Below are positions 2,945-17,962 of a stretch of 34,660 nucleotides of DNA, one piece after another. Each line of letters opens with the position of its first letter. Position 1 is the first letter of the stretch. A program made the translations under genes and the position numbers. Source of the DNA: a virus; the IMG/VR virus record IMGVR_UViG_3300034682_000115, positions 1 through 34,660 of that record; one strand, written 5' to 3'. Under the pieces are notes generated by a model, which made no database searches, was not told where the DNA came from, and was given only the letters and a program-made list of their open reading frames with translations.

Positions 2945-4369
2945 ATGGCCGATTATTTATATCGATTCCGTCCTACCGAACGGATCCTAGGTATTGGGAA
3001 AGATAATAAACCCATTCCAAGCGAACTTGAAAACCTCCAAATATATCTTTCTCCGCCTGACCAGCTAAACGACCCACTGGAAGGGTATAGAACGATGTAT
3101 TGGTCTGGTGACTTTTTTCTTTGGGAAAACCTTGTTAAGCACTATATATACTGCGCCGTCAACCACTACTTAAGGGCCATGCACTCAGAGTCCGATGAAG
3201 AAATCCCCACCAAAGTCCATGTTTTCTTTACGATACATGACGTAGAACCGGAGATTAGAGATATATGCATTGAGGCATCGTCAAAAGTACTCTCACAAAA
3301 GACGATCAAAGACTATATCAAGCTGATTAGCACAGGCAACAGAGTAGTATACCGACATGAGCTGCTGGCCCATTTAAAAACAATGCATCCGTATATTTTT
3401 AGCGTAGTTAAAGATACATTGATACATCACGACTGGCTTCAATATAACGGCACTAAAAGGCTAAGCCAGGCAGACTACTTGGACATTGTACAGTTTCACC
3501 TGGACAACATCCCCAAGGTCGTGAACGCTACAATTGAGGAAATCTTTACCACCGTAGCATTGATCATGGAGCAGGATGAATTCGCCAACTGCCTAATAAA
3601 CAGTAAGTTTTACACTGATAAAGTACACTATTTTATGTACTCTGGGTTCCCCGGCGCGTTCTGCAAGGCGTTAAATAGCCTCATGATGAATGATTGGTAC
3701 ACCGCTTGCTTCATGAGCGAATGTAGCGATTCGTCATTATGGGGGACCTATGGGGATTCGCATCGTGGCTTATGCCTAAAATATAAAGCGGAAAAAAAGG
3801 GCACCGGTTATACGATCCCTCTTCGCCTGCCCACCCATATGCGCAATGGACAGATAAGAACTGAATATGTGGATGCTGAACTTGAGAAAATGTCGTACAC
3901 TTCCAAGCACGAACAAGCGAATTTTTTTCATTCAATGGATGCTGTCAGCGATCATGATCTAGAAGCCTACTGGTATACCGGCAGCAAAGATCGCCAAGCT
4001 GCGACAATAATAACGAAGGGACGCAGCCCCGAAAGTGTGCGGCAAACAGCTAAGGCAGTTATGCTTACCAAAATGGATGACTGGCGCAAGGAGAACGAGT
4101 ATCGTCTTATCCTCAGCCCAAATACATTTAGTCTTGAAGACAAGAATGACCGCTTTGTTACCTACCCCGCTGAGAGCCTGGACGGCGTAATATTTGGCAT
4201 TAACACTCCCATAGCGATTAAGGCTAAGGTGGCACAGATACTAGCCAAAATCTGCCATGAATCTGGGGCAAAGATAAACGTATACCAAGCGAAATACGAC
4301 GATGAATCGGGAAAAATCACCCATGAAAAACTTAACAAGCAGGACTTAGTGACGATTCTACCTAAGTGA
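2945..4369 (+). CDS. DUF2971-family protein (474 aa)
   Basis: The domain landmarks of DUF2971 are present in order. They are the N-terminal LYRFRPTE and LSPPDQLNDPLEGY (residues 5-48), the central CSDSSLWGTYGDSHRGLCLKY (about 259-280), WRKENEYRLIL (about 380-390) and DGVIFGI near residue 420. The protein is longer than many members (often about 250-320 residues) because of a helical insert at about 50-250. The biochemical function of the family is unknown; members occur scattered in accessory and defence-rich regions. It is the last gene of the AT-rich cargo block and converges on the end of the late operon 45 bp away. Confidence 0.8.
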   Translation: MADYLYRFRPTERILGIGKDNKPIPSELENLQIYLSPPDQLNDPLEGYRTMYWSGDFFLWENLVKHYIYCAVNHYLRAMHSESDEEIPTKVHVFFTIHDVEPEIRDICIEASSKVLSQKTIKDYIKLISTGNRVVYRHELLAHLKTMHPYIFSVVKDTLIHHDWLQYNGTKRLSQADYLDIVQFHLDNIPKVVNATIEEIFTTVALIMEQDEFANCLINSKFYTDKVHYFMYSGFPGAFCKALNSLMMNDWYTACFMSECSDSSLWGTYGDSHRGLCLKYKAEKKGTGYTIPLRLPTHMRNGQIRTEYVDAELEKMSYTSKHEQANFFHSMDAVSDHDLEAYWYTGSKDRQAATIITKGRSPESVRQTAKAVMLTKMDDWRKENEYRLILSPNTFSLEDKNDRFVTYPAESLDGVIFGINTPIAIKAKVAQILAKICHESGAKINVYQAKYDDESGKITHEKLNKQDLVTILPK

Positions 4370-12131: not shown

Positions 12132-12445
12132 AGGGTCACCTCCAGATCGCCGAACTGCAGAGTCTTGGCCGTCACCAGGTACGTGCCGGATCCCTGCTCG
12201 ATGATCCGCACGGTGCCCGGTACCAGGCGCACGTCCGCTTCCACCAACAACTCCAGCTGCTGGATGTAGTCGCGCTGGATCAGCCGGCTGCGCTCGGCCA
12301 CCAGGGCCACCAGCAGCCCGCTTTCGCGGATCATGTGGCCGATGTCCTGGGCGATGCAGGCGCGGTCTTCAACCAGCCGCGGCTGATTGCTCGGGTCCAG
12401 GGCAAAGCTGTTGTCCTCGATCAGGAGGTCCAGGTATTCGCTCAT
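12128..12445 (-). CDS. DUF2590-family phage protein (105 aa)
   Basis: The family signature is plain: DLLIEDNSFALDPSNQP, then RACIAQDIGHMIRESGLLVA, then AERSRLIQRDY and VRLVPGTVRIIEQGSG. DUF2590 proteins occupy the place of the gp25/gpW baseplate wedge subunit in HP1/K139-type phages, and a baseplate function is the best inference. It abuts the tape-measure stop (12445) and overlaps gpJ, consistent with tight stoichiometric control. Confidence 0.8.
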   Translation of the reverse strand: MSEYLDLLIEDNSFALDPSNQPRLVEDRACIAQDIGHMIRESGLLVALVAERSRLIQRDYIQQLELLVEADVRLVPGTVRIIEQGSGTYLVTAKTLQFGDLEVTL

Positions 12446-14490
12446 CAGCCCACCGCCATGCCGATCATGTTTTCCAGCTCCAGGTTGCTCATAGGTTTGG
12501 TGTTGGTCAGGTTGAGGTTTTCCACATGCACGCCGGCCTTCTGCAGCAGGCTCTGGCTGTTGTTCGTGGTGTTGGAGGTGTTCTGGATCTGGCGTAGCAG
12601 CCCGCCCTGGGGCACGGCGGCCGCGCGCTGGGGCGAGACGCTGACCAGGTCAGCCGTCATGCGCTGACGGGTCTGTTCGGCCTGCTCATCGATGGACGGG
12701 GTCGTGACCAGTTGAGCGGCCGCCGGCGTGGTGATCAGCGGCGCGGAAATCCCCGGGATCTCGGGTGCTTTTGGCAGGTCGCCAAACGTGGCATCGATCT
12801 CCACGCCCGGGATCTTGTTCAGCATCTCGATCAGGCCGCTGATGGCGTCCTTGAAGATCTTCACGATGCCGTCCCAGGCCGCGCTGGCCAGGCCCGTCCA
12901 GCCGCCGATGGTGCCGAACCAGTCCGACAGCGCCTGCAGCTGGCTGCCGATCCATTGGAACGCTGCCGTGTTCATCAGCGCGCCGGTCCACTGGTCCCAG
13001 TAGACGATCGCGGCCGCGACCACGACGCCCAGCGCGACGATGCCGGCGATAATCAGCAGCACCGGGTTGGCCAGCATCGCGGCATTGACCAGCCAGATCG
13101 CGCCCTGCCACAGCAGCATCCCGGTACGGACCAGCCCCATCCAGGTGTACATGATCGCCAGGCCCGCGACGAACGCGGTCACCATCACGGTGTGGTAGAG
13201 GAACATCGCGATCGAGCGGAAACCGGTCCAGGTCAGGATGTTCCAGACGGTGACCATGCCCAGCCACACCATGCGGCTCATGCCGACCACCAAGGTCAGC
13301 GCTGACATTGCCGCGACGATGCCGAAGATCACCAGCGTGGCCATGCCGATCGCCCGGGTGATGTTCGGGAACAGCTGGCTCCAGCGGGTCAGGGTCTGCG
13401 CGATGCCCACCAGGCGTTCCATCAACGGGGTGAGCATCGGAATCAGCGCCTGGCCGAAGGCGATGCGCAAGGCCTGGACCGCTGCCGCGAACTGCTGCCA
13501 CGGATCCACCATCGCCTTGGCCATCTTCTCGGCGTTTTCCAGACCCCGCACCTTGCCGATCTGCTCCAGTCCACCGCGCAGCCGGTCGGTGTCCTTGGCC
13601 AGCGCCGCGATTACCTGGGCACCTTCCCCACCGAAGGCCTCGGTCAGTTTGGTGCCGGCGGCCGCGCTGGTCAGGTCGCCATACTTGCCCTGCAGCTTGT
13701 CCAGGATCTGCAACATCGGCAGGGTGTTGCCGGCGGCGTCAGTCAGCTTGAGGCCGGTCTTTTCCGCTGCGTTGCCGATGTTCTCGAAGAACGCCTTGTA
13801 GCGGCCGCCGGCGTCGCCGCCTTCCATGGTGCTGGACAGCGTGCCGATCACCGCCATTTGCTCGGCCACACTGATGCCCGCCGTGGTGGCGATCGCCCCG
13901 ACTTCCTTGAAGGCATCCTTGAGCTGCGCGCCGTCGGTGCGGAACAGCTTCACCGCCAGGGCGGTCTGGCCCGCCAGCTGGTTGGCCCATTCGACCTTGC
14001 CCATCTTGTCGGCTTGTCCCTTGAACAGGTTGTACATGGTGCCCAGGTACGCGCTGGTGGTTTCGGCGTCGGACTTGGTCGCTTTGGCCAGAACGCTGCT
14101 CGCGTTGGTGATTGCAGCCAGCTGGCTGCCCACCAGACCCTTGATGCCGCCCTCAATCGCACGCGACGAGGCGACGAATTCGGCGGCACTTGCGCCGTAG
14201 GCCACGGAGAATTCCAAGGCCTTGCTGTTCAGTGACGTCAATGCATCCTCGGCCACGCCTAGGGCGCGCACGTCGCCTAGCGCCCGATTGACCTCAAGCG
14301 CGGGTTCGAGCGCTTCGCTAACGGCGACGCCGGCGCCGACCATACCCGCCAGGCCCGTACCCATCTGCAGGATGCTTTTCTGCCCCTGCTCAGCCAAGTC
14401 GGTGATGCTGGCTTTTACTTTGCCCAGGGGCGCAGTGATCTTGTCGTTCAGTGACAGGATGAAAGCCAGGCGGGAGGAGGTATCAGCCAA
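12445..14490 (-). CDS. tail tape measure protein (681 aa)
   Basis: It sets tail length and later passes through the membrane. The N-terminal 350 residues contain the TP901-type core: AYGASAAEFVASSRAIEGGI, ATKSDAETTSAYLGTMYNLF and GGDAGGRYKAFFENI. Several hydrophobic segments follow at about 375-500 (IGMATLVIFGIVAAMSALTL and similar), then a Pro/Thr-rich tail ending with LELENMIGMAVG. At 681 residues it is in the range for P2/HP1-length tails. It begins 7 nt after the frameshift product of the chaperone gene ends. Confidence 0.92.
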   Translation of the reverse strand: MADTSSRLAFILSLNDKITAPLGKVKASITDLAEQGQKSILQMGTGLAGMVGAGVAVSEALEPALEVNRALGDVRALGVAEDALTSLNSKALEFSVAYGASAAEFVASSRAIEGGIKGLVGSQLAAITNASSVLAKATKSDAETTSAYLGTMYNLFKGQADKMGKVEWANQLAGQTALAVKLFRTDGAQLKDAFKEVGAIATTAGISVAEQMAVIGTLSSTMEGGDAGGRYKAFFENIGNAAEKTGLKLTDAAGNTLPMLQILDKLQGKYGDLTSAAAGTKLTEAFGGEGAQVIAALAKDTDRLRGGLEQIGKVRGLENAEKMAKAMVDPWQQFAAAVQALRIAFGQALIPMLTPLMERLVGIAQTLTRWSQLFPNITRAIGMATLVIFGIVAAMSALTLVVGMSRMVWLGMVTVWNILTWTGFRSIAMFLYHTVMVTAFVAGLAIMYTWMGLVRTGMLLWQGAIWLVNAAMLANPVLLIIAGIVALGVVVAAAIVYWDQWTGALMNTAAFQWIGSQLQALSDWFGTIGGWTGLASAAWDGIVKIFKDAISGLIEMLNKIPGVEIDATFGDLPKAPEIPGISAPLITTPAAAQLVTTPSIDEQAEQTRQRMTADLVSVSPQRAAAVPQGGLLRQIQNTSNTTNNSQSLLQKAGVHVENLNLTNTKPMSNLELENMIGMAVG

Positions 14491-14496
14491 GGTGAT

Positions 14497-14951
14497 TTAT
14501 CCGTTGAATGCGTGGGCAATGCCGTTGGCGACTGCGATTTCCATCCGTCGCCAGTGTTCGTCTTCCAGCCATTTGGCTGTGCCCAGGGTGTCAGTGGTGG
14601 GCACCACCCCAGGCAGCCAGCGCCGGTGCAGGGCCATCAGCTGGCCCAGCCCGTCCTGGTTCAGTCCTTCGGCGTGGTCGAGGGCTTTTTTACGATCACC
14701 TCGACATCAGGCGAATACTCCTCGAGGAGCGCGCCGGCGATATTCATGGTGCTGATCGGGTTAGCCAGCAGCGGCTTGAGCGATGCCTTCTGCTCCTGTT
14801 TGATGGTGTTCATCAGCAGGTTGTGGGCCGGGGCGATCTTGTTGTTCTGCGTGGTCGCGTTGTAATACTTGGTGACGTCCGCCGGGGTCAGGGAGAACAG
14901 GAATTCATCGCTGCCGATTTCCAGGGTGATGTCGCGGTTTACTTCGTTCAT
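14497..14951 (-). CDS. tail assembly chaperone, -1 frameshift fusion product (151 aa)
   Basis: A perfect slippery heptamer A AAA AAG sits at 14691-14685 in the right phase (GTA AAA AAG) near the end of the 96-residue chaperone frame. A -1 slip there joins residues 1-89 to 62 residues of the -1 frame (ALDHAEGLNQDGLG ... GIAHAFNG), stopping at 14497. That frame is open, has the composition of real coding sequence, and fills the gap before the tape measure. This matches the G/GT of lambda and E/E+E' of P2, in which the short and long forms together chaperone the tape measure. Confidence 0.8.
14661..14951 (-). CDS. tail assembly chaperone, short form (96 aa)
   Basis: The zero-frame product starts MNEVNRDITLEIGSDEFLFS and contains TPADVTKYYNATTQNNKIAPAHNLLM. 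It is a small helical protein just upstream of the tape measure, the fixed position of P2 gpE-like chaperones. Translation ends with VIVKKPSTTPKD unless ribosomes slip at 14685-14691. No signal peptide or membrane segment is seen. Confidence 0.85.
   Translation of the reverse strand: MNEVNRDITLEIGSDEFLFSLTPADVTKYYNATTQNNKIAPAHNLLMNTIKQEQKASLKPLLANPISTMNIAGALLEEYSPDVEVIVKKPSTTPKD
14685..14691 (-). promoter_or_regulatory. programmed -1 ribosomal frameshift site
   Basis: On the minus strand the heptamer reads A AAA AAG, the most efficient bacterial slippery class, exactly in zero-frame phase. The zero-frame stop lies only 7 codons after it. Downstream sequence is GC-rich and could form a stimulatory hairpin; I have not folded it. 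Low-frequency slipping would set the short:long ratio of the chaperone. Confidence 0.8.
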
Positions 14952-16182: not shown

Positions 16183-16391
16183 CGGTAGCCTCCTTTCTCA
16201 AACACGGACTGGCACGGCACACAGCGGGTCATCCCGCCCAGCGCCCGGCGCGCAGCCGGGATCTCTGCGTCGCAGTCCTCGCAATGGGTCAGGCTTGGCC
16301 CGCTCGGGCGCGCCTGGGCAAGCGCGGCGGCAATGGCCTGGTCGCGTTGCCGCTGCTCCAGCGCTTGGGCGCGATCGAACGGGCAAACCAT
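16179..16391 (-). CDS. TraR/DksA-type zinc finger protein (70 aa)
   Basis: A four-cysteine finger, CEDCDAEIP ... TRCVPCQ (C-x2-C-x17-C-x2-C, about residues 37-59), identifies a short TraR-like member of the DksA superfamily. These bind the secondary channel of RNA polymerase and, in phages, modify host transcription without ppGpp. Its start overlaps the tail-tube stop by one base (TGATG). Such genes commonly sit between tube and lysis genes of P2/HP1 phages. Confidence 0.85.
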   Translation of the reverse strand: MVCPFDRAQALEQRQRDQAIAAALAQARPSGPSLTHCEDCDAEIPAARRALGGMTRCVPCQSVFEKGGYR

Positions 16392-16843
16392 CAGATCAGG
16401 CCCTCGATCTCGGAGGCGGCCAGGTACGGCGTGCCGTCGATGTGCACGAAGTCCGGACTGGTGACGTCGTACTGCACCTTCACCGTGGACTTGGCGCCGC
16501 CCTTGGGATCGATGCTCAGCAGGCTGGACAGACGGAGCTTGCAGCCGAAGGCCTCGTACTTGATTTCGTCGTCGCCGGCCTTCGCGTAGAACACGATGTC
16601 GAAGGGCTCGATCTCGCGGAAGCTGCCCGCGCTTGCGGCCTGCTCCTTGATCAACTTGAAGTTGGCAATGTCCACCTCGATTTCTCCGGAGGCGGACACA
16701 TCGCCGTCGACGTGGCCATTCGGTACGCCACGGGTCTGACCCACGGCGCTGTTGTCGGTGATGTCCAGGGTTGCGGCCTCCACATGAACCTTGAGGTCGC
16801 CCAGGTTCACATCGAAGTTTTTGCCGCCAATACGTGCAGCCAT
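16391..16843 (-). CDS. tail tube protein, DUF2597 (150 aa)
   Basis: It forms the inner tube of the contractile tail. DUF2597 markers are LDITDNSAVGQTRGVPNGHV, then GDVSASGEIEVDI, then AGSFREIEPFDIVFYA and FGCKLRLSSLLSIDP. The gene follows the sheath with a 3-nt gap, the sheath-then-tube order of contractile tails. Length is normal for HP1/K139-type phages. Confidence 0.85.
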   Translation of the reverse strand: MAARIGGKNFDVNLGDLKVHVEAATLDITDNSAVGQTRGVPNGHVDGDVSASGEIEVDIANFKLIKEQAASAGSFREIEPFDIVFYAKAGDDEIKYEAFGCKLRLSSLLSIDPKGGAKSTVKVQYDVTSPDFVHIDGTPYLAASEIEGLI

Positions 16844-16846
16844 GGG

Positions 16847-17962
16847 TTACTCCGTGGTGGTGATCGAAAGATCCAGGGCGAGGTTCGCAGTGATGTCTTT
16901 CGGGCAGTTGAGGGGACGCAGAGTCAGGTAGGCGACCACGGCGGTTTTGCTGGTCCAGCTCAGGACGATCGAGTCCTTGGTCGGCGGCTCGATCTCGCCC
17001 GGGAAGACGTTCGCGCCGACCTTGGTGGACTTGGCCATCTGGCGCAGCGGCGCCATCAGCGCGGTGCGGTTGACTTCCATGCTGTTGGCCGAACTGTTCA
17101 GGCGGCGATCACCGATGCGCTGGATCAACAGCACACGCACACGGCGGGCGGCCTTGTCCAGGACACGCAGGTATTCGATGACCTGGACGTCTGCGCCTGG
17201 CGCGGCCAATAGGCTGGCATCGCCGAAATACACGCCTGGATAACCGGCGTAGGTCTGGGTCACGGTCAGGCGGGCCGCATCGAGCACTGATCGGGTCGCA
17301 GACTGCAGGGGGATCCCGTCCTTGTCGGTCGGGATCGCGCCCAAGCCCTCCACCGCACCGGTGGCCACCCGCATCGGGGTGTCGGCGATGCTGGTCGCCG
17401 CATTGGCCAGGCGGCCGGCGAGCACGCCCAGGTCATTGCCATGCAGCTGCGGCACGACCGCTACCCGATCGGCCACCAGGTCACCGACTAGGTCACGCTG
17501 GGCAGTCTGATACTCCGCCCAGGTCTGTTCGCTGGTGATGCCGGCGGCGGCCGCGAGGACGAATAGCCGGCGTCCGTAGGTGTTCTGGACGCCATTCGCT
17601 GCCGCATTCATGGCTGACAGCTCGGCTGCAGTAGCGACCGGCCGGGTGATGACCACCGCCTCGACGTCGTAGTCTTGCTGCTGGGCGTAGGTCAGTGCGG
17701 CGGACCAGTCACCGTCGGCCGCGATCGGCGCTGCCAGGCAGGCCCAGCGATCGCCGCCGTTGGCACGGGCGGCAATGATCTGGGTTTTCAGGTCGCTGGC
17801 CGGGATGCCCAGCTGCGCGTCCAGGTCGCTTTCGGTGTTCAGGGCGATGATCTGGCCGATGTTCTTGGCACCGGGGCCAATGAACAGGAACAGCCGCTCG
17901 ACCTCGGTACTGGTGCCCTGACCAAGGTTGAGATTGTTTACGGATACTCTGCCGAGTGCCAT
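16847..17962 (-). CDS. tail sheath protein, DUF2586 (371 aa)
   Basis: It contracts to drive the tube through the envelope. The DUF2586 family is shown by VNNLNLGQGTSTEVERLFLF at the N-terminus, LFVLAAAAGITSEQTWAEYQ near the middle, and the C-terminal DKAARRVRVLLIQRIGDR (about 270-287), a region used for sheath interlocking. Length is typical. Presence of DUF2586 and DUF2597 instead of P2-type FI/FII places this tail in the HP1/K139 branch. Confidence 0.87.
   Translation of the reverse strand: MALGRVSVNNLNLGQGTSTEVERLFLFIGPGAKNIGQIIALNTESDLDAQLGIPASDLKTQIIAARANGGDRWACLAAPIAADGDWSAALTYAQQQDYDVEAVVITRPVATAAELSAMNAAANGVQNTYGRRLFVLAAAAGITSEQTWAEYQTAQRDLVGDLVADRVAVVPQLHGNDLGVLAGRLANAATSIADTPMRVATGAVEGLGAIPTDKDGIPLQSATRSVLDAARLTVTQTYAGYPGVYFGDASLLAAPGADVQVIEYLRVLDKAARRVRVLLIQRIGDRRLNSSANSMEVNRTALMAPLRQMAKSTKVGANVFPGEIEPPTKDSIVLSWTSKTAVVAYLTLRPLNCPKDITANLALDLSITTTE

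Follow-up and report, generated by a model that had tools for sequence, protein, structure and literature searches.

Evidence for a programmed −1 frameshift linking the tail assembly chaperone to DUF6890 in an HP1-like member of the Peduoviridae

Does the short chaperone gene that precedes the tape-measure gene of this phage encode one product, or also a second, longer one made by ribosomes that slip into the −1 frame? We examined this question in a window of 34,660 nucleotides (positions 1 to 34,660 of IMG/VR virus record IMGVR_UViG_3300034682_000115). Among named phages, the nearest that we found were UFJF_PfPro and phi3, two Pseudomonas phages assigned to Peduoviridae, and the capsid, scaffold, and small terminase genes of the window are of the P2 type. 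The tail genes considered here lie on the minus strand in the order sheath (16847..17962; PF10758, E 5e-128; phrog_907, tail sheath), tail tube protein of the HP1 Orf24 family (16391..16843; PF10772, E 8e-57; phrog_1182, tail protein), lysozyme and Rz, chaperone, and tape measure (12445..14490; phrog_28, E 7e-94; PF10145, E 6e-25). The chaperone gene sits between the tube and tape-measure genes, as in the lambda G/GT plan, with the lysis genes separating it from the tube gene.

The chaperone gene (14661..14951, minus strand) encodes an E/gpG-like protein of 96 residues that matches PF10963 (Phage_TAC_10, E 7e-18) and phrog_1214 (E 1e-31). Its codons 87 to 89 read GTA AAA AAG, placing the heptamer A_AAA_AAG (14685..14691) in the X_XXY_YYZ phase; seven sense codons and a TGA follow, so that the heptamer lies 21 nt 5′ of the 0-frame stop. 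The sequence-only reading of this locus had reported an in-phase A AAA AAG at 14691-14685, seven codons before the stop of the 96-residue frame, and each of these numbers was reproduced from the sequence. From the heptamer the −1 frame (14497..14685) is open for 62 codons (14685-14500) up to a TAA stop (14499-14497); this extension matches DUF6890 (PF21830, E 1.3e-21; phrog_7050, E 3e-23) and is under purifying selection. The predicted fusion therefore consists of chaperone residues 1 to 89 plus 62 residues, in agreement with the 151 aa given earlier. The −1 frame had also been described as running exactly up to the tape-measure gene: its 62 open codons stand, and that gene does follow directly 3′, but the two do not abut, since a 6-nt gap separates the extension stop from the TTG start at 14490. 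Most close relatives have ATG-GCT-GA at this place. With an apparent TTG start six bases behind the extension stop, the tape-measure gene may be translationally coupled to the fusion.

By itself, the window provides moderate evidence for a frameshift site. When we resampled synonymous codons, keeping the protein sequence fixed and drawing codon usage from six late genes, 1.5% of the resamplings (P about 0.015) had AAAAAAG in phase within the last 16 codons, and 6.8% had any in-phase X_XXY_YYZ heptamer there. A 62-codon open frame arose in 23% of dinucleotide shuffles. AAAAAAG is found 12 times on the two strands of the window versus 2.3 expected, so that finding a copy is in itself weak evidence. 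Only three copies, the slippery site among them, lie between 4.4 and 22 kb.

Comparison with relatives decides the case that the window leaves at moderate strength: because the heptamer is conserved among them, the site is more than a chance occurrence. Our first set comprised 92 loci: the window, 17 stretches taken from the records of named phages, and 74 IMG/VR loci retrieved with the short protein as the query. Each of the 92 has an in-phase A_AAA_AAG, A_AAA_AAC, or A_AAA_AAA where the short frame ends, and the extension lies in the −1 frame in 91, the remaining locus ending at a contig edge. An extension-only search enlarged the set to 405 loci, counting the window and 404 fetched sequences; 399 of them combine an in-phase A_AAA_AAN with an extension in −1. 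These loci are not independent, since many contigs were fetched by both queries and they cluster in few host groups; after collapsing to distinct junctions, the same arrangement is found in 320 of 326. According to the sequence-only reading, close functional relatives that had lost the heptamer would speak against a frameshift; these 320 junctions keep it. They fall into three forms: AAAAAAG, with 21 nt to the stop (162 distinct junctions; the Pseudomonas-type group, to which the window belongs), and AAAAAAC and AAAAAAA, both with the stop immediately after the heptamer (80 and 78 junctions, respectively). Across the three, conservation reaches down to about 30% protein identity.

The six departing junctions differ in kind. 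Two (L254 and L368) carry one extra A, around position 1495, that brings the chaperone into the same frame as DUF6890; these could be sequencing errors, decayed genes, or phages that make only the fusion. One (L182) has one A fewer in the run, one (L207) has an intact heptamer and an extra base inserted downstream, and one (L041) is the contig end mentioned above. Only in L313 (around 1490-1505) is the heptamer lost (GTAAAGATATAA) and the extension intact in −1. Damaged extensions occur in 3 of the 399 loci: two (L049 and L052) are lost after residue 23, and one (L240) contains a single stop.

As an independent test, we started from a Pseudomonas genome, sampled its class and its phylum evenly (369 and 398 genomes, some of them in both samples), and scanned these samples with the DUF6890 profile, setting aside two places in the starting genome. 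All eight new places above the curated cutoff have an in-phase heptamer at the junction: AAAAAAG in three (L495, L499, and L503), AAAAAAC in four (L496, L497, L498, and L502), and AAAAAAA in one (L500). One match below the cutoff (L501) lies within a long unrelated frame and has no adjoining chaperone.

We also tabulated codon choice at the slip site. Two distinct junctions, one AAAAAAG and one AAAAAAA, were too short for the codon table and were left out of it. In the AAAAAAG group, all 161 of 161 junctions have GTA ahead of the lysine pair, as opposed to an A-ending codon for 33 of 1,026 other valines in the gene (3%). In the AAAAAAA group, GTA is used in 77 of 77 junctions versus 73 of 357 elsewhere. 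The codon supplying the first A in the AAAAAAC group is GTA in 72, ATA in 7, and CTA in 1 (n = 80); elsewhere in these genes A-ending codons account for 14 of 302 valines, 0 of 358 isoleucines (ATA), and 21 of 617 leucines. Since the junctions were preselected for the heptamer, this contrast is to be read as how strictly the heptamer is kept, for which the unselected figure is 320/326.

We asked which mechanism best explains the anatomy of the locus, its conservation, the families to which the two halves belong, the selection seen in the −1 frame, and the modest similarity in fold to a known chaperone. Taken together, these point to a programmed −1 ribosomal frameshift in the tail assembly chaperone gene of this HP1-like member of the Peduoviridae that would yield a short chaperone and a fusion, a reading to which we assign a probability of roughly 0.9; all evidence that can be drawn from sequences agrees with the frameshift proposed earlier. 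Most ribosomes would read 96 codons and terminate, which yields the short chaperone. A smaller share, with Lys-tRNAs on AAA and AAG, would slip back by one base at A_AAA_AAG and read 62 more codons in −1, producing a 151-residue fusion that ends in DUF6890. By analogy with lambda, many short copies may coat the tape-measure protein, and a few fusion copies may recruit tail-tube subunits via their DUF6890 part; we regard this recruitment of the tube by DUF6890 as probable. Slippage itself, its level, and the binding partner of each product are what we infer in this scheme.

We searched for elements that could stimulate the shift. Upstream of the heptamer, the window contains GAGGTGATC (14694..14702, minus strand), a Shine-Dalgarno (SD)-like sequence that matches the end of 16S rRNA, with a spacing of 7 nt between GAGG and the heptamer. 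We rejected this possible stimulator for lack of conservation: only 35 of the 161 Pseudomonas-type junctions have GAG as the matching codon, and other places in the gene have a lower mean anti-SD energy than this site. A potential hairpin (GGGCCA-loop-TGGCCC; 14631..14647, minus strand), whose role is putative, begins 37 nt 3′ of the heptamer; it too was rejected, as its pairing (78%) is close to that of a control slid by one base (73%). No downstream hairpin in the window satisfies the 4- to 10-nt spacing rule of IS3-type sites, and a near hairpin was predicted in 17 of 40 sampled members of the Pseudomonas group versus 21 of 40 and 18 of 40 shifted controls. In some relatives of the AAAAAAA type, a hairpin with about 12 pairs starts 7 nt past the heptamer. 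Four Vibrio-type loci (L311, L316, L319, and L080) show strong hairpins right after A_AAA_AAA_TAG, with differing sequences. Downstream folding energies are low in the AAAAAAC group, for which high GC content may account (mean z near 0 in a 60-nt test). According to a survey of motifs in Escherichia coli, A_AAA_AAG is among the best when stimulators are present, and motifs without a stimulator reach at most about tenfold over a background of 0.055% (PMC4066793). With unstimulated motifs at that level, an efficient shift in the window would need a further element.

These differences raise a tentative possibility, to which we give a minor share of belief: that the shift signal of one homologous chaperone pair has diversified by lineage, with three heptamer forms and differing stop distances and helpers. 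In such a scenario, the Pseudomonas-type phages would use A_AAA_AAG, followed by a short 0-frame tail and lacking any recognizable stimulator; A_AAA_AAC and A_AAA_AAA might be helped by a slow stop codon directly behind the heptamer; and part of the Vibrio-type phages might be helped in addition by the strong hairpin 7 nt downstream. If this were true, the Pseudomonas form would either depend on a kind of stimulator not yet described or run at a very low ratio.

Among alternatives to ribosomal frameshifting, the one that survives best, although we consider it improbable, is transcriptional slippage, in which RNA polymerase would gain or lose an A in the run so that some mRNAs encode the fusion in one frame. 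The site is indeed a run of A's, seven long in one group; an extra A does fuse the frames in 2 of 326 distinct junctions; and conservation of the run per se fits both mechanisms. However, the window and two of the three groups have no more than A6, whereas transcriptional slippage has been linked to runs longer than seven A's (PMC3711429), and the run is always placed in the X_XXY_YYZ phase required by ribosomes. Ribosomal slippage is the best reading because this phase is found in all 320 junctions and because two of the three groups have A6.

Still less probable is that DUF6890 is a separate short gene, translated from an internal start (e.g., the ATG at 14637) by reinitiation or from its own ribosome-binding site. 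It is annotated as its own coding sequence (CDS) in 9 of 21 record views, and the window does have an ATG at extension codon 17 (14635..14637, minus strand), the first able to start a separate short ORF. A possible start is present by codon 16 in all but one of the 77 distinct junctions of the AAAAAAA group (76 of 77); with only one lacking it, this group offers no argument against internal starts. The window's ATG, however, is not kept in relatives, and first possible starts are scattered from codon 4 to codon 54, with none in 10 of 80 AAAAAAC-type junctions. ATG, GTG, and TTG are all absent before codon 33 in 24 of 161 AAAAAAG junctions and before codon 34 in 28 of 80 AAAAAAC junctions, so that the invariant L24-P25 of the extension lies ahead of any start in these junctions. 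Selection also acts in the −1 frame ahead of the ATG: over codons 10 to 16, which lie past the 0-frame stop and before the usual internal ATG, dN/dS is 0.07 in the window's group, compared with 0.20 over codons 17 to 60. (The corresponding values in the AAAAAAA group are 0.36, a weaker signal, and 0.10.) Finally, a separate gene leaves the invariant heptamer unexplained. Least probable of all is the absence of any programmed event, i.e., a chance A run beside a decayed or unused open frame: the shuffling and resampling values for the window alone would allow it, but three heptamer forms conserved to about 30% protein identity and present at 8 of 8 independently found places argue against it.

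For the short product, structure prediction gave a modest match to a known chaperone. An AlphaFold2 model built from 40 sequences (pLDDT 91) consists of a beta hairpin and helices; its best match among solved structures is the uncharacterized 3fgx (Z 9.3), followed by the HK97 tail assembly chaperone 2ob9, to which the similarity is middling (Z 5.1 by VIA, rmsd 3.6 over 77 residues; Foldseek E 1.7). The extension was modeled as three helices (pLDDT 87.5), and a fold search with the extension alone gave no significant match (best E 1.6). Sequence searches of solved structures with either half likewise found nothing significant (best E 0.26).

How does this pair relate to known systems? Its likeness to P2 E/E+E′, asserted in the earlier reading, holds for the plan: P2, also in Peduoviridae, makes a short chaperone and a −1 fusion (91 and 142 aa, compared with 96 and 151 aa here), with a heptamer close to where the short frame stops and the tape-measure gene next. 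It does not extend to protein families or gene neighbors. P2 E and E′ belong to PF10109 and PF06528, neither of which was listed at E ≤ 1 among matches to the window halves (PF10963 and PF21830); the P2 heptamer is TTTTTTG rather than AAAAAAG; and directly upstream of the chaperone P2 has the sheath and FII genes, whereas the window has lysis genes. A profile comparison with P2 E was dropped because the 80 P2 E relatives kept were 99 to 100% identical to P2. The heptamer of lambda G/GT also differs from AAAAAAG. Lambda shares the plan and presumed job with the window, but the proteins differ, and the lambda products have been assayed whereas those of the window are predicted from sequence. In lambda, many short copies are made per fusion copy, and the products bind the tape measure and the tube protein (reviewed in PMC5009743).

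The homologous pair is found in HP1 and HP2 (orf26), K139, phiO18P, PV94, and ESSI-2, all of which have the chaperone frame, the heptamer, DUF6890 in −1, and the tape measure; tblastn with the window pair matches HP1, HP2, K139, and others. These HP1-type relatives have A_AAA_AAC or A_AAA_AAA with the stop right behind the heptamer, unlike the window, with A_AAA_AAG and 21 nt to the stop. The window's heptamer is the one common to E. coli dnaX and IS3-family sites (PMC3711429 and PMC4066793). In dnaX the shift is stimulated by an SD-like element upstream and by a hairpin on the 3′ side, and at IS3-family sites mostly by a 3′ structure; none of these is conserved in the window's group. The natural signal variants on homologous proteins in this phage family provide material for studying how strongly a tail frameshift depends on a stimulator.

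If the frameshift reading is right, the mechanism would be an ordinary one; the records examined leave the fusion product of this homologous family unannotated. We surveyed 21 record views of 20 phages (phiO18P was seen twice): none annotates a joined frame, the extension being a separate CDS in 9 and missing in 12. This includes HP1, HP2, K139, and phiO18P; the P2 record, by comparison, gives E+E′ joined, with the frameshift site marked. In the literature searched, we found no paper with DUF6890, PF10963, PF21830, or Phage_TAC_10, and none linking phage HP1 to a tail translational frameshift. Because Xu 2004 may list HP1, we do not claim that the HP1 case is unpublished. DUF6890 (PF21830, phrog_7050), listed as of unknown function, would on our reading be the −1 half of a chaperone fusion rather than a free protein.

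Two other features of the window deserve mention. The Rz gene contains a nested frame of 68 aa that starts with GTG (15238-15032, minus strand) and has a lipoprotein signal, LLLLAISGC, with the lipobox judged by eye; it probably encodes an Rz1-type outer-membrane spanin. Near one end of the record, on the strand opposite the tail module, lies a gene of 474 aa (2945-4369, plus strand) with a weak match to DUF2971 (E 7e-5), possibly a cargo gene.
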